Part shown: piece after piece, positions 30,937 to 44,917 of the stretch | How the letters are laid out: each line of letters starts with the position of its first letter | Numbering within the stretch: the stretch's first letter is position 1 | Assembly: GCA_017461225.1 (NCBI GenBank) | Contig: JAFTYV010000051.1 | Coordinates: forward strand, 1 to 44,917 | DNA from: Candidatus Methanomethylophilaceae archaeon | GTDB taxonomy: Archaea; Thermoplasmatota; Thermoplasmata; Methanomassiliicoccales; Methanomethylophilaceae | Reading direction: 5' to 3' | DNA: 44,917 nucleotides | Notes under the pieces: generated by a model | What the model was told of the DNA's origin: nothing | Seen by the model: only the letters and a program-made list of their open reading frames with translations | The model's database searches: none | Position numbers and translations under genes: made by a program

Positions 30937-32619
30937 ATGGACACGAGAGAGTATCCCGACGGAACGTTCGACTTCAGGGCCCTGGTCTCCGGGAACTACT
31001 ATTTCGTGGACAAGACCATGCTCATAGCCGACGTATGCGAGGCCAAGAACAGGACCTTCCTGTACACCAGGCCCAGGAGGTTCGGCAAATCGATGAACCT
31101 CTCGATGCTCGATTACTTCTTCAACCTCAGATACGGGAACGACGAGGACATCTTCAGAGGACTGAAGATAGAATCGTGTGAAAGATGCACACCGTTCAGG
31201 AACGCATACCCCGTGATAAGGATGAACTTTGGCTGTCTCGACGGCTCATCCCCCTCGTCATTCGCAGACAGTCTGAGGTCCATGATCTCCATCGTGGCGG
31301 AGGATGCGGTGTCGCTGTTGGAATCGACCGGCCACACCGACAGCATAACCGATAGGATCAGGGATGCGATCTCCCTTCGCCTCGACATCACCGAGACGAG
31401 GATGTTCGTCTCCGATCTGTGCAGGCTGTACCGCAGGGTGTTCGACAGGGACACCGTAATCCTGGTGGATGAGTACGACCGGTGCCTCCAGGGGATACGT
31501 TCCCCCAACAGGTTCGCAGAGGTCTTCGATGAACTGGTACAGTTCATGGAACAGACCTTCAGGTTCAACGGGAACATCCGGTTCGGTGTCGTCACGGGGA
31601 TCATGCCCTTGGCGAAGACCGGCATGCTCAGCAGCTTCGACAACGCCGACATATGCAGCATCCTGGATGAGAGGGGCGACGGGTTCTTCGGGTTCACCGA
31701 ATCCGAGGTCATCCAGCTCCTCGATGAGACCGGCAACCCCCTCGGCAAGATGGACGAGATAAGACGGTGGTACGACGGGTACCGCTTCGGAGGGGCCGAC
31801 ATCTACAACCCATACAGCGTGGTCCTGTACCTGCAGAACAGATGCAGGCCGGAGGCCTATTGGAACAACATGACGGGAGGCGGCATGTCGCCCGAACTCG
31901 TCGCCGGGATGAGCGCCGAGTCACTCTCCACCCTGAAGGGGCTCCGCGAGAACAGGGGCTCCTCCTTCGAATCCCCCATAGACGTCAGGATATCGTACAC
32001 CGACGTCATGTCGCCCGCGGTCGACCCGTCCGTCGTGTACTCGTACCTGGCCATGTCTGGGTACCTGAATGCGATCCGCACCGGGAGGGAGAGGGACGGG
32101 AAGCCCCTCTGCACGATCACGATGGTGAACAACGAGGTCTCCTACGCATTCGATTCACTGGTGTCCAGGGCGGACTCCCTGGCGGACTACACCCGGTCCG
32201 CGATGGATGCCGTGTACTCCAGGGACAGGATCCAGTTGAAGGAGAACCTGGAGCTGCTGCTCTCGGGACTCCAGCTGGATGACGGTTGGTTCGACGGGAT
32301 GAACGACACCGAGATGCACAACAAGTACCGCGACATCATCTACGCCTATCTGATGGACCCCTCGATGGACGGCAAGGAGGAGATGCCCTTCGGACTCGGA
32401 AGGGCGGACATAAGCTTCCATGCATCCAACGGAAGACCCCCGGTCATACTGGAGGTCAAATCCACACGGTCCGAGAGCACGGACCGCCGGCTCCTAGCAA
32501 GGGAGGGACTGGCCCAGATCGACGAGAAGGGTTACACGAAGCAACAGGACATGAGGGATGCGATCTGCGTGGGCGTGGGGATATGGCACAAGTTCGTGGA
32601 AGTGTCCTTCGGGGAATGA
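30937..32619 (+). CDS. AAA-ATPase-like / PD-(D/E)XK nuclease-superfamily protein (DUF1703 type)
   Basis: 560 residues. The N-terminal AAA-ATPase-like domain has a Walker A variant (TRPRRFGKSMNLSML, GKS at 50-52) and Walker B (VILVDEYDRCL). The C-terminal PDDEXK_9 domain has GRADI and VILEVKS. Such proteins occur in many copies in gut and rumen microbes and are thought to be mobile or defence-linked, with no proven function. The ATG at 30937 starts right after the hsdR remnant, so the gene seems to have replaced most of hsdR. Higher GC than the genes before it. A second member lies at 43758. Confidence 0.85.
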   Translation: MDTREYPDGTFDFRALVSGNYYFVDKTMLIADVCEAKNRTFLYTRPRRFGKSMNLSMLDYFFNLRYGNDEDIFRGLKIESCERCTPFRNAYPVIRMNFGCLDGSSPSSFADSLRSMISIVAEDAVSLLESTGHTDSITDRIRDAISLRLDITETRMFVSDLCRLYRRVFDRDTVILVDEYDRCLQGIRSPNRFAEVFDELVQFMEQTFRFNGNIRFGVVTGIMPLAKTGMLSSFDNADICSILDERGDGFFGFTESEVIQLLDETGNPLGKMDEIRRWYDGYRFGGADIYNPYSVVLYLQNRCRPEAYWNNMTGGGMSPELVAGMSAESLSTLKGLRENRGSSFESPIDVRISYTDVMSPAVDPSVVYSYLAMSGYLNAIRTGRERDGKPLCTITMVNNEVSYAFDSLVSRADSLADYTRSAMDAVYSRDRIQLKENLELLLSGLQLDDGWFDGMNDTEMHNKYRDIIYAYLMDPSMDGKEEMPFGLGRADISFHASNGRPPVILEVKSTRSESTDRRLLAREGLAQIDEKGYTKQQDMRDAICVGVGIWHKFVEVSFGE

Positions 32620-32720: not shown

Positions 32721-34217
32721 TCACCTCCTCACGCACAGCCTCTGCTTGGGGGAGAGCGGGGACTCCGGATACAGGTACTCTATGTCCCCTCTCTCCAACA
32801 TGGAGTTGATGATCTTCCTGAAACTGTTCCCCGCAGTCTTGTATCCCAGTCTCGCGGCCAGTTCCCTGCTCGACATGCAGCCCTCCTTCGAGAGGACGTC
32901 CAGCACCATGGCCTCCAGGTCGGATGCCCTCCTCCTCGTCCCCTCCGACCGGGCTCCGGTTGATGACCTCTCCATGAACGCGGGATGTATCGGCAGCACC
33001 AGGCGCATGAAGCTCCTGTCGGCATCGGTGACGATGGTCGGATCACCCGATCCGTTCATGCGCATCTCCTTGAATATCTTCGGTATCCCGGTGTTGCGAC
33101 CCTCTGCGAGACCCAGCTCCCTCAGGAAATCTCCAAGGCGTTTGTTCCGGTAATGGGTGGATATCATCCTGTGCCCATCCAGATCCTCGTCCGAGATGCT
33201 GTGGTCGGGGCCGGGGAGGTTCTGTATCTCGATACTGTCCGGTGACACTGTGATGGTGACCGGTTCCCCTATGGCGTAGCTCCTGTGGTACACGGCGTTG
33301 ACCACTGCCTCCTCTATCGCACCGAACGGATAGCTCCATACCCTCAACGCCTCCGCCTCGCCATCCACCTTGATTATCCTCAATCTCACGGCCTGTTCCT
33401 TCAGCAACCGCAGGGAAGCCCGGATCTGTGTGTCGACCGGTCCCTCGAAGTGGTCCTCAATCGTCCCGGACCCATCCGGACCCCTCTTGAACACCACCTC
33501 TATCCTCGCGTTGGGGAAGAAATCCATGGGATGCGGATTGAACATCATCAATGCCACGTTCAGGGGCTTCCTGAACCCGTCCGGACCACGATCGAGGTCC
33601 ATCATCCTCAGGAGCTCCCCCTTCGGAACGTCCTCCCTGCGGATACCGCTCTTCACACGGGTCAGGTACTCCCTCACCAGCTCCAGATCGATGTCGTCCA
33701 TTGATGCCCCCATGTTCATCAGACTGTCGAAAGAGGGATTCTCCCTCCTGCTCAGCAGAATCAGTTCCTCCTCCGGTGTCGCCCGTACCGTGTGGGACAT
33801 CCTCCTTACGTAGCACGCGTACCCGGAACCCTCCATCCCCTCTCCGATATCGACGGGGCATTCATATGGACGGCAGAGATCCGATGATACCCGTATGACG
33901 GCCAGTCTGCGACCCCCCACGTCCTCCACCGAGAGGTGGGGTGTGAGATCGGGTGTGATGAGGTCGCATAACCTGAACAGCTACCGTTCGATCTCGGACG
34001 CCCTCTCGGGACCTATCCCGACGACCTCCGGACGTCCGTCCTCCGTCTCCGCGACGCCGATCAGCACGTACCCGCCACCGACCTCCTCCATATCGTTGGC
34101 GAAGGCGCATACGGAGTGGAGGACCTCTGTCGGATCCCATTCCTCCCGGAACTCCACACGGTCGCTCCCGATGTTGCGTCTGTTGAACAGGGATGTCACG
34201 TTGACGGGCAATGACAT
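32721..34217 (-). CDS. AlbA_2-domain ATP-binding regulator with one in-frame TAG
   Basis: 498 codons after the ATG at 34217 (GGAAGTG upstream), interrupted at codon 79 by TAG (33981-33983). Before it: the AlbA_2/Schlafen-like DNA-binding domain (VEFREEWDP, CAFAND, GGGYVLIGV). After it, in the same frame and without loss of family similarity (LFRLCDLITPDL): the rest of that domain, the ATP-binding C-terminal domain (EEAVVNAVYHRSY, NTGIPKIFKEM) and a winged helix near the end. No other gene in the window stops at TAG. Either TAG is read as pyrrolysine or by readthrough, or the gene is a fresh pseudogene making a 78-residue fragment. Confidence 0.8.
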
Positions 34218-34256
34218 TGAACCACTTCCTCGGAGTCCTTCCCACTTGTGCTTGAA

Positions 34257-34304
34257 CTTTAACTCAAGCTTTAACTCAAGCTTTAACTCAAGCTTTAACC
34301 AAAG
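34257..34304. repeat. Four tandem 12-base repeats
   Basis: Unit CTTTAACTCAAG, three perfect copies and a fourth with changes (CTTTAACCAAAG), preceded by a part copy. They lie 40-87 bases upstream of the AlbA_2 start codon. Direct spacing of about one helical turn fits iteron-like binding sites for a regulator, possibly AlbA_2 itself. Slippage expansion is the alternative. Confidence 0.7.
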
Positions 34305-34461
34305 CTTCGACTCTGACCCCTGGGGATTGAACTTGATCTCATGGAGCACGGGTCCGGACCGTCATGTTGTCCATGACCGGTACGTTTCAGAGGATGCCGG
34401 GGTTCCACCCCCGGGAAAGGGGAGCATCTTCGGATCGAGACCTTCCCGGGACCTACGTTCC

Positions 34462-34599: not shown

Positions 34600-36309
34600 T
34601 CAGATGGCGAACCCGATGAACACGTTGTTCTGACCCACGGACCTGGCGTAGTTCAGGGTGTCGCACTGCCCCCTCACTATCGGCAGCCCGTTCCCCTCGG
34701 AATCGTACCCTATCGGGTCGAACGGTTCCCCGTCGTCGCGTATCGTCACCAGCACGCGCCCGTCGTTCACCCTCATCAGGATGTCCGCGAACCTGCTCCC
34801 ATCTCCCGAGAGCCCATGCTCCACCACGTTCAGCAGCACCTCCTCGCAGCAGAGGCGCGCACGCATGCGGACGCCCTCCGCCACGCCGCAGTCGGAGAGG
34901 AACCCGTCGACCGAGTCCAACACTTCGGCCAGATCGGAGCCGTCGCCCCTCACCGAAGCGTCCATGGTCGAGCCCTCGGGTCTCTTCAGGAGCGCCAGTC
35001 CGGAGAACTCCGGCCTCGCCCTCCTGACCGCCATCGACGACGCGAACACCGCGACGGTCACCAGCAGCTCGCCCATCGGGAAGGACATCCAGATGTAGTC
35101 GGAACCGTGCGGGGCCAGCGACACGGCGAGCATCAGCACGGCCGCGCACTCCGCGGCGGACACCGCCAGGGACGCGGGCCTGTGGCCGAAGACCTGGAAC
35201 AGGATCATGACCATGTAGTTCACCGCCTGCAGCACCAGGAACGGCGCGAACAGGCGTATGCAGTGGATCCCCTCCTCCACCATCCCGGGATCGGTGACAC
35301 CGTACACGGTCAGGAACGCCTGCGGGACCAGCAGCGCCGCGAGCATTATGGCACCGGATGCGGCGACAAGGTACCTGGCGGCGATGGACGTGACCATGCG
35401 CATACCGGTCATGTCCTCGGAACCGTAGAGCGTCCCGCCCACGGGCTGGAGCGTCTGCGATATACCGGATACGATGATGGACGACAGCATCTGTATGTTC
35501 AGGCACACGGACCTTATCGCCATGCCCTCGGAACCCATGTTGTCCATGATCACCAGGTTCTTGCCCAGCATGTTCACCATGATCAGGATCATCGCGAAAG
35601 CGGCCGGGGAGCCCATGGACAGGATCTCCGCCGTGCCCACGGTGCCGCGACCGATGCCGAGGCGGCTCCCCCCGCGGAAGTGCGTCAGGAGCACGGCGGC
35701 GCCGGCGACGTACCCGACGGCGGTGGACAGAGCGAACCCGGGGAGCCCCATGCCCATGGGGCCCATGAACACGTACGCGAGGACGACGTTCACCACGTTC
35801 GACGTCAGGAACCCGGCCGTCGCCAGACGGGGGGCGTTGTCCATCCTGACGAAGGCCCCCAGTCCGGGCATCATCACGTACAGCGGGGACATCGCGAACA
35901 CCAGGGCCCCGTACTCCCTCGCATCCGCCAGGAGGGCGTCGGTGCTGCAGAGGACGTCCACTATCGGGTCGATGAGCAGCACACCCGTCACGGCGATGGC
36001 CAGGGAGACCAGCAGGGACATGCCCATACAGCGGGTGAATATCCCGCGGATCTCGGAATCCCGTCCGCGCCCTATGCACACGGCCATCACGGTCGCCCCG
36101 CCGATGTTGATCAGGGCGTTGGTGGCCGCCAGCATCTGGATCACGGGCATCATTACATTCACGGCGCCGAGCGCGTCGGAACCGAGCACCTGCCCCACCA
36201 CGATGCTCCCGAGCATCGAGCCAAAGGACACGGCCATGGTGGACATCGCCGTGGCCACCAGGTACGACCTGAACGCCCTGTTCACCAGGAACGGGTTCCT
36301 CTCCGTCAT
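34600..36309 (-). CDS. MATE-family transporter fused to an RsbW-like HATPase domain
   Basis: 569 residues. Residues 1 to about 430 form a MATE exporter with 12 membrane helices (paired halves, start NPFLVNRAFRSYL). A cytoplasmic C-terminal domain (about 450-569) is a GHKL/anti-sigma-type ATPase: N box EEVLLNVVEHGL, DDGEPFD, and GNGLPIVRG. A transporter carrying its own RsbW-like domain suggests direct control by a STAS protein or by phosphorylation. It starts one base after the stop of the LuxC fusion and ends the operon. Substrate unknown; the neighbours suggest a fatty-acid-derived product. Confidence 0.88.
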   Translation of the reverse strand: MTERNPFLVNRAFRSYLVATAMSTMAVSFGSMLGSIVVGQVLGSDALGAVNVMMPVIQMLAATNALINIGGATVMAVCIGRGRDSEIRGIFTRCMGMSLLVSLAIAVTGVLLIDPIVDVLCSTDALLADAREYGALVFAMSPLYVMMPGLGAFVRMDNAPRLATAGFLTSNVVNVVLAYVFMGPMGMGLPGFALSTAVGYVAGAAVLLTHFRGGSRLGIGRGTVGTAEILSMGSPAAFAMILIMVNMLGKNLVIMDNMGSEGMAIRSVCLNIQMLSSIIVSGISQTLQPVGGTLYGSEDMTGMRMVTSIAARYLVAASGAIMLAALLVPQAFLTVYGVTDPGMVEEGIHCIRLFAPFLVLQAVNYMVMILFQVFGHRPASLAVSAAECAAVLMLAVSLAPHGSDYIWMSFPMGELLVTVAVFASSMAVRRARPEFSGLALLKRPEGSTMDASVRGDGSDLAEVLDSVDGFLSDCGVAEGVRMRARLCCEEVLLNVVEHGLSGDGSRFADILMRVNDGRVLVTIRDDGEPFDPIGYDSEGNGLPIVRGQCDTLNYARSVGQNNVFIGFAI

Positions 36310-36310
36310 C

Positions 36311-38761
36311 TCACCTCCTGTCCACGACGTTGCGCAGCTTGATACTGGACGTGTTCATGATGAACCCGTCATCCCCCACATCCTCCACGCGCAGGGACAT
36401 CAGGCCGTGGGGAAGGGTCTTGGCGAACGAGTCGTAGCCGTCCACCAGGATGCGGGCGACCTCCTCCGTGGTCAGCCCGGAGCCGTCGAGGCGGATGGTC
36501 ATGCGGTCGGTGAGCCCGTCCCCGTCCATCACGATCTGCATGGAGCCCCTGTACCCGAACCCGTCGGAGAGCATCGCCGCGATGCGGTGGAAGTTGAAGA
36601 ACGTCCCACCGGCGCGAACCACGTCCCCGTGGCGCCCCATGAGCTCGAACCTCGGCTCGGCGCGTCCGCAGGGGCACCTCCCGGGGACCCATCTGCCCAG
36701 GTCCCCTATGTCGTACCTCTCGGTGCGGCCGTTGACCCTGCGGTACCCTGTGAAGAGCATCCTGCCCACCTCCCCCTCGCCGACCGGCGTGTCGGAGTCG
36801 GTGGCGACGATCTCCAGATGCTGTATGTCGGAGTGCAGGTGGTACACGTTCCCCTCGCAACGGGGGCACTGGTACCCCATGGACCCGGTCTCGTTGGCGC
36901 CGTACAGTGCGGAGCGGATCACCTCCACACCCATGGACTCCAGGTACGCCCTCTGTCCGTCCGTGATCATCTCGCCACCGTAGAGCAGCTTCCGGATCCT
37001 ACCGTACTCCCTCACGGTCTCCTCGTTGTCCCTGATCATCCTCACGGCGTAGCTCGGAGCGGACAACAGCACGGTCGCACGCCCCCTGATGGCGTAGTGC
37101 AGCGCGAGGGACGTGTCCTCCAGCCCGCCTATGTTCAGGTGGGGCACGGACATCCTGTCGAACACGGATATGAACGCGTTCAGACCGCCGTACAGGTTCC
37201 CTCCCCTGAGCAGGTCGGCGACCACGTCGGTCTCCGGGTCTATGCCCCCGGCGAGGAGCGATTTGACGGACGGCCTCACTATGTAGTTCTCGAAGTCCTC
37301 CGCGGTGTAGCTGCAGTAGACCGGTTCCCCGGTAGTCCCGCCGCTCTTCATCAGGACCTTGGTGCCGTCGTCGGGCACGGGCGGGTAGTCCCCCTTGCCC
37401 TGGATCGGACCGTCGAAGGACATCTGCCCCCTGGGACGGAGCTCGTCGAAGCTCACGACCCCGGCCATGTCCAGGTCCGTCCTCAGGGAGACCCTCCTCA
37501 TGAACCTGGGGAGCGCGTAGCCCCCGTCGTGGGGCTCGCCCGTGTAGCTTACGCCCATGGATCCGACCGGCGTGACCCTGTCCACACCGGCCGCGAAGAG
37601 ACGGTCGGAGACGTCGTCCAGGTCCTCCACGGAGCATGCGACGCCGGCTGTCTGGAGGTACTGCCTCATACCCCTGAGCGCGCCGACCAGGTCGGCCCTC
37701 GGGAGCGGGGACAGCCACACCGTGCGGAACAGCGGCGAGGGTGTGAAGAGGGTACCGTAGGACACCAGGATCCTCCACATGCGGTCCGGATCCTCCAGGA
37801 CGTCGCCCGGGTTGAAGAACAGGTCGCACCTGTGGACCTGGGTGACCGCGGTCACCTCCGCCGCCTGGGCGTCGTCCGGCATGACCATGGGGTGGCGCGA
37901 CTTGGCGCGGTCCAGCGCCGCACCGAGCATCGATGCGATCCTGTCCACCTCCCCGCGGGAATCCGTGTCGACCAGGACGCACTGCGGACTGGAGCACGAC
38001 TGCTGCCCGTTCCTGCATATGTCGGCGGCCAGGTCGTCCATCAGGTCGTCGTCCGCCGCGCCCGGTTCGATGTACGCGAAGCTTATCTTGTGGCCCCACG
38101 CCACGAAGGGCACACCGCGGGGCGCCATCTTGCGCAGGGACTCTATGGCCTCCTCGCCGCCCCATGCGCTGACACAGTCGGCGCGGTCGAGTATGTGCGT
38201 GAGCGTGTCCCTGTCCGAGGACGGGAACCTTAGCATGTACACGCGTTCGGCGATGGAGGGTTCCGCACACAGGGCCTCCGCCACGGTGACGGCGAACTCC
38301 CCCGTGTCGCTCGCGACCTTCATTATGTTGATGTTGCCCGACAGGAGTCCCTCGACCAGGGCCATGGGCGCCACGATGGGCGAGTTGCCCGCGGTCACGT
38401 GGACCAGGACCCCCATCGGCTTCCACGCCTCGTACCTCTGGTGACGGTCGGACGTCCTGGACACCGCCATCGGGTCGGTGGTGCCTAGTTCCGCCACGAG
38501 CTTCTCCCTGAGCCTGTCCGGGGACAGGTTCCCCACGAGGGCGTCGATGACCGCCCCGGGATCCGGTGCCCCGTCGGCCTCCAGCGCCGCGACGTACCTT
38601 CCGCGGCCGTCCTCGGCCATGTCCCCGCACAGCCGGTCGCATGCCGCCAGGACCGTCCCGGTCCCGAGCACGGTGCCCAGCGCCGCACCTATCTCGTCGT
38701 CGAGTCCGGGAAGGAGCCCCTTGAACGACTCCACCCTCCTGCCCCTCCATATGTGGGACAT
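36311..38761 (-). CDS. LuxC-like acyl-CoA reductase fused to an adenylate-forming ligase
   Basis: 816 residues, two enzymes in one. Residues 1 to about 430 match LuxC-type fatty acyl reductases, with the catalytic cysteine in GQQSCSSPQ (Cys256); these reduce an acyl thioester to aldehyde with NADPH. Residues about 440-816 are a phenylacetate-CoA-ligase/LuxE-like adenylating domain with the phosphate-binding loop SGGTTGEP (473-480), a zinc-ribbon-like CPRC...H and a CPCG motif. The fusion could activate and reduce a carboxylic acid in one protein. It starts one base past the LuxE gene stop. Substrate unknown. Confidence 0.85.
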   Translation of the reverse strand: MSHIWRGRRVESFKGLLPGLDDEIGAALGTVLGTGTVLAACDRLCGDMAEDGRGRYVAALEADGAPDPGAVIDALVGNLSPDRLREKLVAELGTTDPMAVSRTSDRHQRYEAWKPMGVLVHVTAGNSPIVAPMALVEGLLSGNINIMKVASDTGEFAVTVAEALCAEPSIAERVYMLRFPSSDRDTLTHILDRADCVSAWGGEEAIESLRKMAPRGVPFVAWGHKISFAYIEPGAADDDLMDDLAADICRNGQQSCSSPQCVLVDTDSRGEVDRIASMLGAALDRAKSRHPMVMPDDAQAAEVTAVTQVHRCDLFFNPGDVLEDPDRMWRILVSYGTLFTPSPLFRTVWLSPLPRADLVGALRGMRQYLQTAGVACSVEDLDDVSDRLFAAGVDRVTPVGSMGVSYTGEPHDGGYALPRFMRRVSLRTDLDMAGVVSFDELRPRGQMSFDGPIQGKGDYPPVPDDGTKVLMKSGGTTGEPVYCSYTAEDFENYIVRPSVKSLLAGGIDPETDVVADLLRGGNLYGGLNAFISVFDRMSVPHLNIGGLEDTSLALHYAIRGRATVLLSAPSYAVRMIRDNEETVREYGRIRKLLYGGEMITDGQRAYLESMGVEVIRSALYGANETGSMGYQCPRCEGNVYHLHSDIQHLEIVATDSDTPVGEGEVGRMLFTGYRRVNGRTERYDIGDLGRWVPGRCPCGRAEPRFELMGRHGDVVRAGGTFFNFHRIAAMLSDGFGYRGSMQIVMDGDGLTDRMTIRLDGSGLTTEEVARILVDGYDSFAKTLPHGLMSLRVEDVGDDGFIMNTSSIKLRNVVDRR

Positions 38762-38762
38762 G

Positions 38763-39932
38763 TCAGCGCCTCCCCAGCATCTCGGATGCCGCTATGGCGC
38801 AGCTCCTGTTCCTGCTGACGCCCGCGCGCCCGACTATCTCGATCCACGGTGCGGGGTTGCCGCAAGGGCACGACCCGGGTGCGTGGAGCACCCCGAAGTC
38901 CCCCATCATCAGGCTGGTGACCGGCACGCCGGTGTTCATCGGCGACACGAAGTTGATGAAGCCCTTCTCACCGTATCCCAGGGGCTCCATCGTACGGGGG
39001 TCCCTGATCAGGATGCGGTCGTAGACGGGGACGTGGAAGTGGTGCTCCGGGCAGTCCGTGTACGCGACGCCGTGCTCCACGGCGCCGTAGGTCTCGCGGA
39101 AGCGGGTGTGGTCGAGACCGAGCATCCTCCCGGCGTACTCCCTGAACCTCTCGGGGGTCATCTGGCGGTCGGTGAATCCCTTCCACCCCCCGCCCATGCA
39201 CACCAGGGAACCGGGATGCAGCTCCAGCGGAGGGATGCCCATGGCCTCCATCCTCTCCAGCGTGAAGAACAGGAACGCCGGGAACCCGAGTATGTACACC
39301 GGGAGGCCCTGCTCCTCGAACCTCCTCAGCGCGTCTATGCACCCGAGGAGGTCGAACTCGTGACCGTTCCCCGTGTACCTCAGGGCGTACACCAGCTCGT
39401 TCTCCCTCCCGTAGCGGCGCATCATCTGCCTTGTCCTGAGGGTACCCATGTTCACACCCTCGGCTGGCTCGTAGGAGTACATCAGGAAGTTCACCGGTCC
39501 GTCGGTGATGTGCCCGTACCTCCGCATCTGCACGTCGGCGGATTTGTCGGAGGCGAAGAGGCTCCACTCGTCGAAGAACATCTGGCTCTTCTGCCCGGAC
39601 GTCCCGGAGGACGTGAGGGTCAGCAGGATGTCGTCATCATCCGCGGTCTTGACCGTGTGGGTCTTGTAGAAGTTGGCGTGGATCGGCGGGACCCTGTGGA
39701 TGTCGTCCACCGTGCGTATGTCGTCCGGCGACACGCCGTTCCTCTCCAGCCAGTCTGCGTAGAAGGGGCAGGCCGTGTGCCTCACCAGGTTCTCGCGCAC
39801 GGCACCGGCGAACAGGTCGTCCGTCCCCGGATGGTCGTACGGGTCCTCCACCGCCCACAGGGCCTGGGTGCACGGCATGCCGTCCAGGACGACGTCCGGG
39901 TCGTCCAGCCCGCGTATGTGGTAGTCGGTCAC
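38763..39932 (-). CDS. LuxE-like acyl-protein synthetase
   Basis: 389 residues. Start GTG at 39932 in a GTGA overlap with the upstream stop, with GGAGG six bases or so ahead. It has the adenylation loop TSSGTSGQKS (107-116), and near its C-terminus a CPCG motif and a cysteine in RSCAIAASEML (Cys378), at the place of the LuxE acyl-carrying cysteine. LuxE proteins activate a fatty acid with ATP and pass it to LuxC for reduction to aldehyde. No luciferase (luxAB) is present here, so the aldehyde must serve another purpose. Confidence 0.85.
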   Translation of the reverse strand: MTDYHIRGLDDPDVVLDGMPCTQALWAVEDPYDHPGTDDLFAGAVRENLVRHTACPFYADWLERNGVSPDDIRTVDDIHRVPPIHANFYKTHTVKTADDDDILLTLTSSGTSGQKSQMFFDEWSLFASDKSADVQMRRYGHITDGPVNFLMYSYEPAEGVNMGTLRTRQMMRRYGRENELVYALRYTGNGHEFDLLGCIDALRRFEEQGLPVYILGFPAFLFFTLERMEAMGIPPLELHPGSLVCMGGGWKGFTDRQMTPERFREYAGRMLGLDHTRFRETYGAVEHGVAYTDCPEHHFHVPVYDRILIRDPRTMEPLGYGEKGFINFVSPMNTGVPVTSLMMGDFGVLHAPGSCPCGNPAPWIEIVGRAGVSRNRSCAIAASEMLGRR

Positions 39933-41338
39933 AGGTCCCCCTCCGGATCGAGTGCGCGGACCGCGTCCAGGAGCTCCCGGAACCGGGGCGTGGTCTGGAA
40001 AACCGAGTAGTCTATCGTGCCGACGAGGATCCTCTGCATCACCAGGTAGTCGCACCTGTCCGATGCCGGGAGCATCCCGGTGCAGAAGTAGCCGAGCCCC
40101 TTCACCCTGTCGTAGAGCCAGGGCGCGGCGGGGTCCTGGAGGTTTATCAGTATGTCCGAGACCTCCATGCCCTCCGTCCTGAGCCTGTGGTGCTCCCTCC
40201 TCAGGACCCCGAACGTGTCCGAACCTATGGACAGCACGTATGTCTTCGACAGCGCGAGGACGCCGTTCACCTCCGTGACCACCTCCCCCTCGCCGGCGGG
40301 CGGCTCCGAACCGGGGACGTGGGAACGGTCCAGCGAGCAGTTGCGGACGACCATGTCCACGATGTGCCTGACCTCGTCGGGCGTGTGCACGTCCCTGTGG
40401 ACGTCCCGCATCATGCGTACCGCCCAGAAAAGAGGCATCCTGGCACCAGTCCCGTAGGTCGAGGCCATGTCCGAGCAGGCGTAGTTGAAGCAGACGGCGC
40501 AGGCGCCCATGGACGTGGCCTCGCATATCCTCTGGGTGTACGGGTGGTACCCGACGGGCTGGGCGTTCACAGACACCAGTCCCGACGCCTCCGCGTGGGA
40601 CAGGGCCATGTCCGTGAGCCTCGACATCAGCGACGCCTTCCTGAACCTCCTCTTCACCACACCCATCGCCAGCTCCATCGTGCCGGTCAGGTGGGGGTTG
40701 GACACCAGGGCCACGTGCGCGGCGACCTCACCGGCATCCGACACGGCGGTGAACGGCACCAGCGCACCCGTGCGGGTGGCCTCGGCCAGCCTCCCGGGGA
40801 AGTACACGATGTCGTTCACGTAGGTGTAGCCGAACTCGTCGTACAGGCACTGGGACACCTGCATGCCCTCCTCCGGGCGCATGATGTGCATGTCGAAGGT
40901 CATCCCCTCCACCGGTTCCGTGCCGGTGTCGCGGGGCGCGTCCCCCGAGCACCGTGGAATGGGGAACCCGAAGACCTGCTCGCGCCCCTCCCTGCCGTGG
41001 TTCAGCAGCTCGGGTCCGAAGTCCGTCCCCGTCAGGATGCGGGCCAGGTCGGAGTAGCCGTTGCTCCCCAGGGTCTCGTAGTCGTACGGCATCCCGCGGT
41101 CGCGTACCGACGCCATGAGCATGCCGTCCTCCGACGACAGGGTTACGCTCACCGACGCGTCGGGGTTGTTCCCGTACCCGTACTCCACGATCCCGATGAG
41201 GACCTCCTCCAGGTTCAGCCTCATCCTGAGCATGTCGTCCCCGTCCATCCCGAGCTCCGTGGCGATGCCCTCGGTGACGTCGAGGGCGTACGGTATCATG
41301 GATGCCGTGGAGCGGAGGTCCATGGTGATCAGCCTCAC
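39929..41338 (-). CDS. RsbW-like HATPase fused to a GNAT-like domain
   Basis: 469 residues. Residues 1 to about 135: serine-kinase-type GHKL ATPase, with N box LNLEEVLIGIVEYG and DRGMPYD. Residues about 150-330: a fold like GNAT acyltransferases (MRPEEGMQVSQCLYDEFG ... VVKRRFRKASLMSRLTDMALSHAE), then a second, unassigned region of about 140 residues. Start GTG at 41338 with GGGGTGAT ahead keeps the first beta strand; ATG 41323 would cut it. It follows the STAS gene by four bases. It could phosphorylate the STAS protein; whether the GNAT part is an enzyme is unknown. Confidence 0.78.
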   Translation of the reverse strand: MRLITMDLRSTASMIPYALDVTEGIATELGMDGDDMLRMRLNLEEVLIGIVEYGYGNNPDASVSVTLSSEDGMLMASVRDRGMPYDYETLGSNGYSDLARILTGTDFGPELLNHGREGREQVFGFPIPRCSGDAPRDTGTEPVEGMTFDMHIMRPEEGMQVSQCLYDEFGYTYVNDIVYFPGRLAEATRTGALVPFTAVSDAGEVAAHVALVSNPHLTGTMELAMGVVKRRFRKASLMSRLTDMALSHAEASGLVSVNAQPVGYHPYTQRICEATSMGACAVCFNYACSDMASTYGTGARMPLFWAVRMMRDVHRDVHTPDEVRHIVDMVVRNCSLDRSHVPGSEPPAGEGEVVTEVNGVLALSKTYVLSIGSDTFGVLRREHHRLRTEGMEVSDILINLQDPAAPWLYDRVKGLGYFCTGMLPASDRCDYLVMQRILVGTIDYSVFQTTPRFRELLDAVRALDPEGDL

Positions 41339-41342
41339 GGGA

Positions 41343-41624
41343 TCACCCCAGGACCTTGTCCATGCCCGAGATCTCCAGGACCTCGGCCACCAGTCCGGTG
41401 GCACCAGTCAGCCTCACACGGACCGTCCTGTCCACCAGCACCAGCGCCCTGATCCCGGCACTGGAGATGTACCTGAGTCCGGAGAGGTCCACCAGCACCT
41501 CCCCGCTGCACCTGGTCGGCACCTCGTCGCTGAACGCCTTCGCGGTGACGGAATCCAGTCTGCCCGCGAGGAGCACCCTCCTGCAGTCGTCTTCGTACGT
41601 GATTGTCAGATCTTTCTCGGACAT
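41343..41624 (-). CDS. STAS-domain anti-anti-sigma-factor-like protein
   Basis: 93 residues, a single STAS domain of SpoIIAA/RsbV type. The phosphorylation loop reads LRYISSAGIRAL, placing the acceptor at Ser55 (SpoIIAA reads DSSG). The ATG at 41624 has AGGAAGTG upstream; a GTG at 41633 overlapping the previous stop is the alternative. In bacteria such proteins bind an anti-sigma kinase when dephosphorylated. It is the only STAS gene in an operon with three RsbW-like domains. Archaea have no sigma factor, so the output must differ. Confidence 0.88.
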   Translation of the reverse strand: MSEKDLTITYEDDCRRVLLAGRLDSVTAKAFSDEVPTRCSGEVLVDLSGLRYISSAGIRALVLVDRTVRVRLTGATGLVAEVLEISGMDKVLG

Positions 41625-41629
41625 GCTGT

Positions 41630-43435
41630 TCACTTCCTCTCCTCTATCTTGACTGTGAGAACGTTCCTCCCGGAGGAACGTGTGTACGAGATGCCGTCGG
41701 ACATCCCGCGTATGAGACGGACACCGTTCCCCCCGGGGCCGTCACGTTCCGGCGGCACCCCGTCCGGTATCCCAGGGACCGATGTCGGGTCGAAGGGGGC
41801 CCCGTCGTCGACAAACGTCATGGTGACGGCATCCCCCGTCTGTATCGTGATTGTGAAGGATCCGGCGCCGGAGTGGGACGCGATGTTCATGGCGACCTCC
41901 TCGGCAACCAGCTCCATGCGCGCACCCGAGGACGGACCGAGCCCCTCGGACACGGAGCGGACCATGTCCATGCACGATGCGGCCCCGTCGGGATCCGCAC
42001 CGAAGGTCCCGCGTGTGGACGGCGTGTACGACAGGGACAGCACCGTCAGATCGTCGGTGACCGCATCGGACCTCTCCAGGACGTCCCTCCTCAGACGGTG
42101 TACCGCATCGTCCGGAGTCACACAGGTGCGGAGGACATCCGTCACGTTCCCCTGACCATAGAACCCGTCCCCCACCGGCGCCTCCGTGACGCCGTCGGTG
42201 AAGACCGTGAGGACGTCGCCGCGTCCCAGTACCGTCCTGCCGGACGTGTATCCGAACCTGCGGACACCCATGATCGGGCCGCGCGGCCCGGTCAGGACGG
42301 TCGCGTCCCCGTTGCCGTGTCTCAGTACCGGGTCGACGTGTCCCGCGTTCACGTACTCCAGGGCCCCGTCGTCCACGTCCAGGACACCGATGAACATCGT
42401 GGCGAACATGCAGGTCGGGTTGTTCTCCGACAGGGACTCGCCCACCCGGGTGGCGGCGGAACCGAGGTCGTCCGCACCGGCGAGGCATCCGCGGACGACA
42501 CCGTGCGCCCTCATCATGAACAGTGCGGCGGGCACCCCCTTGTCGGACACGTCGGCCACGACGAACGCCATCCTGTGGTCGTCCACCGGGAATGAGTCGT
42601 AGAAATCGCCGCCCACCGTCTTCGCGGGCTCCATGCAGGCCGACACGGCGACCCCGGGCATCCACGGCGGGACGTCGGAGCACAGGACGGATGCCTGGAG
42701 ATCGTGTGCGGCGCCCAGCTCGGCGTCGATGCGCGCCTTCGACGATGCCTCGTTCATAGTCATCAGCATCATGTCCATGGTCGCCAGGAACAGGACGGCC
42801 ATCATCATGGTCAGGATCGTCACCGCCCTGTTCTCGTACCCGAACTCGAACAGGCACAGGTACATGCACATGTGGACGGACACCCCCATCAGGACCGATA
42901 TGCGGGAGAACTTCCTGAGTCCGTTGCCCCCAGAGAGGCAGAACCCCGTTATCTCCGACCTCATGCGCCCCCTGAAGCACGCCACCAGGACGGTGCCTGC
43001 GACGACGGATGCGGGCAGGAGCACCATCCTGTCCGAGCCCTCGATGCCCGTGACGGCGCACGTGACGTCGGCCAAGGCTATGCACACCAGGCCGCAGACC
43101 GTGGCCGAGAGGATGTACGAGTACATCGCCGCGGACACCACGGAGCCGTTACCGCCGTCGTACAGGAGCCTTGAACCTATCAGAGGGAACAGGGGCAGGA
43201 TGAGGAGCGGTATGCCCGCACGCGGGACGGTCCTGTTCGGCCACAGGTCCGAGAAGAACGGGGGCACGTCCTGCAACAGTGCGGTTACGACCACCGGGAC
43301 CAGTATCAGCCCCGCCCATGACGCGGCGGTGACCCCTGCGGAGTACCTCCTCCCCAGGGAAAGGTCCACCAGGCACACGTTGACGCAGAGCAACACGCAG
43401 AGGTATATCAGCCAGTACAGTTCCTGCGGCCCCAT
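41630..43435 (-). CDS. Membrane SpoIIE/RsbU-type PP2C phosphatase fused to an RsbW-like HATPase
   Basis: 601 residues. Residues 1 to about 235 hold roughly seven membrane helices and no recognised sensor domain; a short coiled-coil linker (ARIDAELGAAHDLQASVL) follows. The PP2C domain (about 265-455) has the metal-binding GGDFYD, ADVSDKGVPAALFM, TDGVTEA and DDLTVL. The last about 110 residues form a GHKL ATPase (EEVAMNIASHSG, VDDGAPFD, GNGVRLIRG). One protein thus joins the phosphatase and the kinase-type domain that would act in opposition on the STAS protein. First gene of the operon and likely its membrane sensor. Confidence 0.88.
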   Translation of the reverse strand: MGPQELYWLIYLCVLLCVNVCLVDLSLGRRYSAGVTAASWAGLILVPVVVTALLQDVPPFFSDLWPNRTVPRAGIPLLILPLFPLIGSRLLYDGGNGSVVSAAMYSYILSATVCGLVCIALADVTCAVTGIEGSDRMVLLPASVVAGTVLVACFRGRMRSEITGFCLSGGNGLRKFSRISVLMGVSVHMCMYLCLFEFGYENRAVTILTMMMAVLFLATMDMMLMTMNEASSKARIDAELGAAHDLQASVLCSDVPPWMPGVAVSACMEPAKTVGGDFYDSFPVDDHRMAFVVADVSDKGVPAALFMMRAHGVVRGCLAGADDLGSAATRVGESLSENNPTCMFATMFIGVLDVDDGALEYVNAGHVDPVLRHGNGDATVLTGPRGPIMGVRRFGYTSGRTVLGRGDVLTVFTDGVTEAPVGDGFYGQGNVTDVLRTCVTPDDAVHRLRRDVLERSDAVTDDLTVLSLSYTPSTRGTFGADPDGAASCMDMVRSVSEGLGPSSGARMELVAEEVAMNIASHSGAGSFTITIQTGDAVTMTFVDDGAPFDPTSVPGIPDGVPPERDGPGGNGVRLIRGMSDGISYTRSSGRNVLTVKIEERK

Positions 43436-43443
43436 GGCACTCC

Positions 43444-43461
43444 ATCGTTTTAACGATATTT
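43444..43461 (-). promoter_or_regulatory. Promoter and inverted repeat of the partner-switching operon
   Basis: Minus-strand TATA-like TTAAATATC (about 43453-43461), 18-26 bases before the ATG of the phosphatase gene, partly overlapped by an inverted repeat ATCGTT-TT-AACGAT (43444-43457). Likely operator; short leader. Confidence 0.5.
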
Positions 43462-43633
43462 AACCTGATGTACCGTGCGGGACCCATGTAATCCGGAAGA
43501 GTGCATCACATGGCAATGAGATCGAAATCGCCTGGGACGAAATCGTCGATGATGGACATCGTAGATGGTGTTCATGAACTGTGTGATTAGAACAGATGAC
43601 GATAGTGGTATAATCCCCCGTATGTGATGGGTA

Positions 43634-43757: not shown

Positions 43758-44917
43758 ATGAGAAGGGCATTGCCGATATGCGTCCAGGATTTCAGGGAGG
43801 TGCGTGAAGGGAACTACCTCTATGTGGACAAGACGGACATGATACCCCGGATACTGTCCGATGGTGCGAAGGTCCACCTCTGCACCAGACCGAGGCGCTT
43901 CGGGAAGTCGCTGAACCTCAGCATGCTCGACGCGTTCCTCAACCTGGGCTACCCGCATGACAACACATGGTTCGATGGGCTCAAGGTCTCGGACTGCAGG
44001 GGATTCGACCCGCACAGGAACGCCCACCCTGTCATATACTTCGATTTCAAGGATCTCAACGCCACCTCCTATGAGGATTTCCTCCGGAAACTCGGATTGA
44101 ACCTGTCCAGACTCTACAGGAAATACGGTTACCTGGCCGACTCGGAACGGTTGGACAGGGCAGACAGGATGGACTACGAATCCATAATCACCCGTACGGC
44201 CGATTCGGCGGAGATCGAGTACTCCCTGAGAAACCTCTCTGACATGCTGTTCAAGCACCATGGGAGGAAGGTCGTGGTGCTCCTCGACGAGTACGACAGC
44301 CCCCTCCACAACGCCTACGGGACGACATTCCACGGTGATGTACTAGGCATAATGAGGGGGATGCTGTCATCCGCATTGAAGGGAAACGAGTCCCTGGCGT
44401 TCGGTGTCGTCACCGGGGTGATGCAGATCGCGAAGGAGTCCATAATCTCCGGACTGAACAACCTCGAGGTAAACAACATCTTCAACTCCGACTTCGATGA
44501 GATGTTCGGGTTCACCGACGATGAGGTCCGTGCCATCTGCGATGAGTACGGTCATCCGGATAAGTACGACGAGGCGAGGGAATGGTACGATGGGTACAGG
44601 TTCGGGAACACCGACGTCTACAATCCCTGGAGTGTCCTGAAATTCGTCAAATCGGGGTTCGTCCCACGGACGTACTGGGCCGGGACCAGCGGGAACTCCA
44701 TCATCGACACCCTCCTGGACAATGCGGACGGGAAGACCTTCGACGAGATAGGTCTCCTGGCCAGGGGAGTCCCCGCCCCCAAGACCGTCGATCCCACCGT
44801 GACGTTCGCCGATCTCAGGGGGAGGCCCGACAACATCTACTCCGTGATGGTCATGTCCGGGTACCTCAGGGCGGAACCCTCCGGGAGGAGCCACATGCTG
44901 TCCCTCCCCAACGGCGA
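43758..44917 (+). CDS. AAA-ATPase-like (DUF1703 type) protein, 3' end outside window
   Basis: 386 residues seen, open to the window edge. Start ATG at 43758 in the palindrome TGACGTCA. Walker A variant TRPRRFGKSLNLSML and Walker B VVVLLDEYDSPL are clear; WYDGYRFGNTDVYNPWSVL is diagnostic of the family. It is a diverged paralogue of the gene at 30937; the C-terminal PD-(D/E)XK domain should lie beyond the window. Function unknown. Confidence 0.85.
   Translation, partial: MRRALPICVQDFREVREGNYLYVDKTDMIPRILSDGAKVHLCTRPRRFGKSLNLSMLDAFLNLGYPHDNTWFDGLKVSDCRGFDPHRNAHPVIYFDFKDLNATSYEDFLRKLGLNLSRLYRKYGYLADSERLDRADRMDYESIITRTADSAEIEYSLRNLSDMLFKHHGRKVVVLLDEYDSPLHNAYGTTFHGDVLGIMRGMLSSALKGNESLAFGVVTGVMQIAKESIISGLNNLEVNNIFNSDFDEMFGFTDDEVRAICDEYGHPDKYDEAREWYDGYRFGNTDVYNPWSVLKFVKSGFVPRTYWAGTSGNSIIDTLLDNADGKTFDEIGLLARGVPAPKTVDPTVTFADLRGRPDNIYSVMVMSGYLRAEPSGRSHMLSLPNG

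Follow-up and report, generated by a model that had tools for sequence, protein, structure and literature searches.

A partner switch that appears wired to carboxylate-reducing enzymes and an exporter in an archaeal operon

We describe a six-gene operon from a gut-type methanogen, a Candidatus Methanomethylophilaceae archaeon, in which a partner switch appears wired directly to an exporter and to enzymes that would convert a carboxylic acid into an aldehyde, with no transcription factor between. Switches of this kind work by protein phosphorylation and are chiefly known as regulators of gene expression in bacteria. It occupies positions 34600-43435 of the minus strand of contig JAFTYV010000051.1, which we analyzed over its whole length of 44,917 nucleotides (the window) and which is part of an archaeal genome of 1.52 Mb that is 97% complete. 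On balance, we favor the reading that a small-molecule carboxylate-reduction pathway and its exporter are under the control of a partner switch that is self-contained and acts after translation. More tentatively, and with a little less than even confidence, we propose that the outputs of the switch would be the activities of an enzyme and of the transporter, that its kinases would be covalent parts of the exporter and the phosphatase, and that, in archaea and bacteria alike, it would gate how an aldehyde-type small molecule is made and exported without passing through transcription.

The genes encode, in operon order, a membrane PP2C phosphatase-HATPase, a STAS protein, a HATPase-GNAT protein, a LuxE-like enzyme, a LuxC-ligase fusion and a MATE-HATPase (Table 1). 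A prediction made from the DNA sequence before this analysis had placed six near-abutting genes with this domain make-up here; their presence, coordinates and strand are all confirmed, and the Pfam matches (accepted above curated cut-offs) and the junctions agree with it. With refined starts, the junctions measure -4, +4, -4, +1 and +1 nucleotides. Because they range only from -4 to +4 nucleotides, a spacing typical for a single transcription unit, the six genes are probably transcribed together.

A profile search of the whole genome returned one SpoIIE, one STAS and three HATPase_c_2 domains, and all five occurrences fall inside the operon. Since every part lies there, the assembled genome offers the sole STAS protein no further RsbW-like partner from these families, and the operon is a closed circuit. 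In most described partner switches the last component is a sigma factor, and archaea, to our knowledge, have none. Sigma70_r2 had no match in the genome, whereas the same family was matched in 10 of 14 control genomes. The original prediction of a partner switch that works without a sigma factor is thus supported, a sigma-factor output is not, and the partner proposed is a non-sigma one, as in SiaABCD. Because the only STAS, the only SpoIIE and the three RsbW-like domains share one operon with their candidate outputs, the role of partner switches in archaea becomes testable here within one transcription unit.

The phosphatase has about 6-7 predicted transmembrane helices in residues 1-230, followed by a SpoIIE-type PP2C domain (residues 285-469; PF07228) and an RsbW-like HATPase (residues 480-596). 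Its PP2C motifs GGDFYD, ADVS.KG and DD.T are kept in an alignment of homologues, as expected for the SpoIIE/RsbU type. The top PDB match of its predicted model is 3ke6, the RsbU-RsbW part of Rv1364c (E 1.1e-17), and SiaA-PP2C (6k4e) is also among the structural matches. The STAS protein carries, by sequence, a serine of the phosphorylatable type in the motif YISSAG. The earlier assignment of this residue as Ser55 is right when counted from an internal ATG; from the GTG start it is Ser58. The serine of the SSAG motif is kept in all eight STAS sequences compared (as SSSG in Sulfurimonas).

The three HATPases differ in their motifs. The N, G1 and G2 boxes of RsbW/SpoIIAB-type kinases are intact in the phosphatase (EEVAMNIASHS, DDGAPFDP and GGNGVRLIR) and in the MATE protein (EEVLLNVVEHG, DDGEPFDP and EGNGLPIVRG), where they are kept in all six archaeal clusters described below. 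The transporter part of the latter matches MatE (PF01554) in two stretches and has 11 hydrophobic segments. By contrast, the N-terminal HATPase of the window's HATPase-GNAT protein is degenerate, with the N-box asparagine replaced by glycine and no G2 box; across the archaeal clusters, this asparagine is glycine, serine or glutamine in four of six, and a canonical G2 box is missing. Because these features are lost, this domain probably serves for STAS docking or sensing and not as a kinase. The claim that one STAS protein faces three HATPase domains is therefore correct in number, but probably not all three are kinases: on its motifs the GNAT-linked one is rejected as an active kinase, and only those of the MATE protein and the phosphatase look like kinases.

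On the enzyme side, the nearest solved structure for both the LuxE and the LuxC parts is the Photobacterium LuxC-LuxE complex 7xc6. The C-terminal cysteine of LuxE (C379, alignment row 1) aligns with Cys364 of Photobacterium LuxE (7xc6_E), which we take to be the acyl-carrying residue, and the adenylation motif SSGTSG is present. The LuxC part has a catalytic-type cysteine, Cys256, in a QQSC motif that aligns with QQAC of 7xc6_A. Both proteins score far below what NCBIfam requires of equivalogs, LuxC reaching 71 of 750 bits and LuxE 85 of 550, so by score they are remote family relatives, not equivalogs. In the LuxC gene, the ligase half lies below the AMP-binding cut-off in Pfam and matches PaaK/DVU1553 models (3e-18) and PaaK structures (5.6e-24), with an SGGTTG motif. 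As predicted, no luciferase (LuxA/LuxB) is found among the six genes, the rest of the genome not having been searched for it, and the operon has no LuxD either. The GNAT half of the window's protein has no Pfam match. The domain is detected by Pfam in bacterial homologues, and the predicted fold of the archaeal G100 homologue shows tandem GNAT-like domains that match GNAT enzymes best in the PDB (probability 1.00), namely amine and amino-acid acetyltransferases.

Of 147 genomes in the order, six have a full-length orthologue of the LuxC-ligase fusion, and the same six are the only ones among 390 sampled from the phylum. The carriers are G000, G094, G100, G074, G031 and, from another family, G016; SpoIIE is commoner than the cluster, at 37 of 147 genomes. 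Named relatives with the cluster are Candidatus Methanomethylophilaceae and Methanomassiliicoccaceae/Methanomassiliicoccus metagenome-assembled genomes (MAGs), which supports the assignment to the archaea. The order STAS, HATPase-GNAT, LuxE, LuxC-ligase, MATE-HATPase is kept in all six, and the genes are linked in these relatives, not scattered as they would have been had the original prediction been refuted. The PP2C gene lies upstream in four of the six and, in G031, at the far end on the opposite strand. Flanking genes are practically unshared between the six loci, hence the cluster looks like a block of genes that has been relocated whole. Conserved gene order amid different flanks rules out chance adjacency. 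Between the window and its nearest relative, G094, the ratio of nonsynonymous to synonymous substitution rates (dN/dS) is 0.07-0.32 across all six genes, lowest in LuxE; these values are approximate because dS is 1.1-1.8. Purifying selection acts on every gene of the operon. In G094 itself, two overlapping frames make up the HATPase-GNAT gene (L032:10850-10930), a split that is either a sequencing error or real.

Strong evidence that the STAS and HATPase-GNAT proteins would work together, and that switch and enzyme can be physically linked, comes from G100, where the two form a single protein of 590 residues (L033:6735-8507). This fusion fits the earlier suggestion that the output of the switch may be the transporter or the acyl enzymes themselves.

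The enzymes reach beyond the archaea. A search for the LuxC-ligase fusion gave 260 confirmed stretches, of which 80 were kept for comparison, and these show that the fusion is widespread in three gene settings. The first has no switch: Streptomyces, Corynebacterium oculi and Bacteriovorax carry LuxE, LuxC-ligase, GNAT, MFS and PaaK genes, and a conjugative IncF plasmid of Salmonella enterica (CP054717.1; L117:7743-13501) carries LuxE, LuxC-ligase, PaaK and GNAT genes. The plasmid operon sits between recombinase and toxin-antitoxin genes. As a correction to the original prediction, a core of LuxE, LuxC-ligase and GNAT also occurs without any switch.

In the second setting, found in Azonexus, Dokdonella, Contendobacter and Sulfurimonas, LuxE, LuxC-ligase and PaaK are accompanied by a HATPase-GNAT protein, and this recurrence supports the reading we favor. 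A dCache-HAMP-SpoIIE protein is encoded nearby in Azonexus, Dokdonella and Sulfurimonas, and the cluster of Sulfurimonas (a Campylobacterota MAG) additionally includes a STAS protein and a separate RsbW. Amino-acid permeases adjoin the Sulfurimonas and Contendobacter versions (a Trp/Tyr permease in L058 and an amino-acid permease in L111). A gene for a BLUF blue-light sensor lies directly 3' of the SpoIIE gene in Sulfurimonas (L058:14071-14502).

The third setting consists of Eubacteriales and Bacteroidales MAG contigs with archaeal-type genes at 54% identity (L164 and L165; the contigs are short and chimaeras are possible). The Eubacteriales contig continues into LysR and rhodanese genes; in the Bacteroidales contig, MATE-HATPase directly follows LuxC, and LolA and an FtsK-like frame (a label read from the sequence, not from a family search) come next. 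In trees of LuxE and LuxC, the sequences of the two contigs fall into one group with the archaeal ones (support 100/100 for LuxC and 92/96 for LuxE). An archaea-specific invention is rejected on the bacterial neighbor genes of L164 and L165; together with the Proteobacteria and the Campylobacterota MAG that link the enzymes to SpoIIE and HATPase domains, they indicate that the arrangement is not peculiar to archaea, a point on which the original prediction is corrected. The fusion is nonetheless rare in even samples, being confined to the starting genome among 369 from the Contendobacter class, 249 from the Sulfurimonas phylum and 101 from the Eubacteriales MAG family. These distributions point to a mobile carboxylic-acid reduction pathway (LuxE, LuxC-PaaK, GNAT and exporter) that spans archaea, Actinobacteria, Proteobacteria and others; the literature searched yielded no product for it.

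The data show which genes are present, that their motifs are intact, that they are linked, fused in one relative and kept by selection, and that the genome has the switch parts nowhere else; from this we infer a signal, phosphorylation events, docking, an order of chemical steps and a type of product. A signal would act on the membrane PP2C phosphatase, which would remove the phosphate from the serine in the SSAG motif of the STAS protein. Unphosphorylated STAS would then bind two HATPases, those on the MATE exporter and on the HATPase-GNAT protein, and alter their activity, the latter HATPase serving for docking or sensing, and the intact HATPases of exporter and phosphatase would re-phosphorylate STAS and reset the switch. 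Meanwhile, LuxE would adenylate a carboxylic acid and keep it as a thioester on its cysteine, LuxC would turn the LuxE-bound acyl group into an aldehyde by reduction, its PaaK-like ligase half would activate a second (or the same) carboxylate, GNAT would acylate an amine, and the MATE protein would export the product.

Several observations weigh against this mechanism. G100 has no PP2C gene near the operon, its SpoIIE lying elsewhere, and the PP2C protein of G074 has no HATPase; the wiring therefore varies between genomes. In the predicted model of the G100 fusion, built without the separate STAS proteins, which misaligned against it, most of the STAS part has a pLDDT (per-residue model confidence) of about 50 or lower and is unreliable. 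The acetyl-CoA loop of the GNAT domain (Q/RxxGxG/A), canonical as RGQG(V) in Azonexus, Dokdonella and Sulfurimonas, reads RKASL, RKGSV, RGGSV or RNYS in the archaea, and because it is altered in all archaeal members, acyltransfer by them is uncertain. Finally, just one of the proteins could be the target of the switch.

The best surviving alternative, which we consider unlikely, takes that last point furthest: the switch would control the exporter only, LuxC, LuxE and GNAT would be the pathway that supplies the exported product, and the GNAT-linked HATPase would be vestigial, as its lost motifs allow. Other archaea lend it some weight. In G042 (L161), STAS, MATE-HATPase and PP2C-HATPase form a stand-alone trio with none of the enzymes, a related MATE-HATPase occurs in G043, and further archaeal switches adjoin ABC transporters (L151 and L158). 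The trio of G042 fits the reading we favor as well. However, the fusion partner of STAS in G100 is HATPase-GNAT and not MATE; bacterial HATPase-GNAT genes stand next to SpoIIE with no MATE-HATPase; and all six archaeal clusters keep the HATPase domain in the GNAT protein. Comparable switches occur in these archaea. In G099 (L158:1788-7749), two ABC transporters, STAS, a GH3-type acyl ligase and a HATPase lie in a row beside SpoIIE, and linkage of a switch, an acyl-activating enzyme and an exporter may thus recur. In L153, L154, L155 and L157, a recurrent PP2C-HATPase-STAS operon ends in a protein of about 530-565 amino acids, which has a metallo-beta-lactamase fold in the one tested (L154).

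That one HATPase instead sequesters an archaeal transcription factor encoded elsewhere would be in keeping with most described partner switches, which end in transcription, and in Azonexus a sigma-70 family factor of the ECF (extracytoplasmic function) type is encoded directly 3' of HATPase-GNAT (L046:15417-16004). We regard such an output as improbable: none of the six archaeal clusters includes a gene for a transcription factor, Sigma70_r2 is missing from the genome, and two of the three HATPases are covalently joined to transporter and enzyme. We give about as little credence to the proposal that LuxC and LuxE reduce long-chain acyl groups to fatty aldehydes for envelope lipid or protein acylation. 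LuxE and LuxC act on long-chain fatty acids in luminous bacteria, from which the nearest solved structure comes, but the scores fall far short of the equivalog cut-offs, amino-acid permeases adjoin bacterial versions and archaeal membranes are isoprenoid. Because the companion ligases resemble PaaK-type acyl/aryl ligases (PaaK/DVU1553-like), a fatty aldehyde or the lipid that the original prediction had allowed for is not favored as the product. That a transport switch and an acyl-reduction operon are unrelated neighbors, each half being found alone (L161; Streptomyces L065; the Salmonella plasmid L117), is very improbable and largely refuted by the shared order of the six differently flanked loci, by MATE-HATPase directly after LuxC in L165, and by the HATPase-GNAT fusion in several phyla and the STAS-HATPase-GNAT fusion.

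Table 1. Components of the operon and its candidate promoter element, in operon order from the 5' end
Feature	Coordinates	Strand	Basis
Candidate archaeal TATA-like element TTAAATAT	43456-43463	minus	Picked by eye
Membrane PP2C phosphatase-HATPase	41630-43435	minus	Pfam SpoIIE 5.5e-41 and HATPase_c_2 1.2e-11
Single-domain STAS protein, anti-sigma-antagonist type	41343-41633	minus	Pfam STAS_2 6.7e-10
HATPase-GNAT protein	39929-41338	minus	Pfam HATPase_c_2 5.8e-8; GNAT from homologues and predicted fold
LuxE-like acyl-protein synthetase	38763-39932	minus	Pfam LuxE 3.6e-29
LuxC-like acyl reductase fused to PaaK/DVU1553-like adenylate-forming ligase	36311-38761	minus	Pfam LuxC 2.7e-84
MATE transporter with C-terminal RsbW-like HATPase	34600-36309	minus	Pfam MatE 4.9e-21 and HATPase_c_2 2.6e-9

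The candidate element TTAAATAT sits 21-28 nucleotides 5' of the first start codon, a spacing compatible with a leaderless transcript. Beyond the other end of the operon, an AlbA_2 (Schlafen-type) frame (33981-34349, minus strand) and then a HATPase_c_4 frame (32721-33929, minus strand) look like a single gene broken in two (32721-34349); the AlbA_2 frame starts with a 12-base tandem repeat (34257-34307) that encodes KLELKLEL. Two AAA-ATPase_like genes on the plus strand bracket the region, one (30937-32619) with a PDDEXK_9 nuclease domain and the other (43758-44917) interrupted by the contig end.

Comparison with known systems shows which features are shared. As in Rv1364c of Mycobacterium tuberculosis, the phosphatase combines PP2C and an RsbW-like HATPase on one chain, and the STAS serine is of the SSAG/DSSG type found in RsbU/RsbV/RsbW and SpoIIE/SpoIIAA/SpoIIAB. 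Those systems end in a sigma factor, whereas the operon has none and joins its HATPases to a transporter and an acyltransferase. Closer in logic is SiaABCD of Pseudomonas aeruginosa, with the membrane PP2C SiaA, the kinase SiaB, the STAS-like SiaC and, as output, the diguanylate cyclase SiaD: there, too, a membrane PP2C switch is linked to an enzyme and not to a sigma factor. It differs in its separate kinase and second-messenger enzyme and has neither a biosynthetic pathway nor an exporter (PMC7647112).

Among the enzymes, the LuxCE(D) fatty acid reductase (7xc6) shares the LuxE adenylating and acyl-cysteine ligase and the LuxC reductase, with aligned cysteines; in the operon, LuxC shares its chain with a second, PaaK-like ligase, LuxAB and LuxD are missing, and the switch is present. 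In grixazone biosynthesis, an AMP-binding protein and a reductase, GriC and GriD, yield an aryl aldehyde, a two-protein carboxylate reduction likened here by description and not by sequence; no switch, STAS or MATE protein is described for it (PMC10179220). Actinobacterial PaaK-MFS-GNAT-LuxE-LuxC-ligase operons (for example L065 and L119) have LuxC-ligase proteins 37-41% identical to ours and the same logic of enzymes and exporter, and they differ in an MFS instead of a MATE transporter, an extra PaaK and no HATPase, STAS or SpoIIE; their product was not found in the literature searched. The expectation that no system of this make-up had been described is borne out in the open-licence literature, where we found no paper on this combination or its product. 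Each part of the operon is of a known kind, and its new element is a switch wired to enzyme and exporter through covalent HATPase domains.

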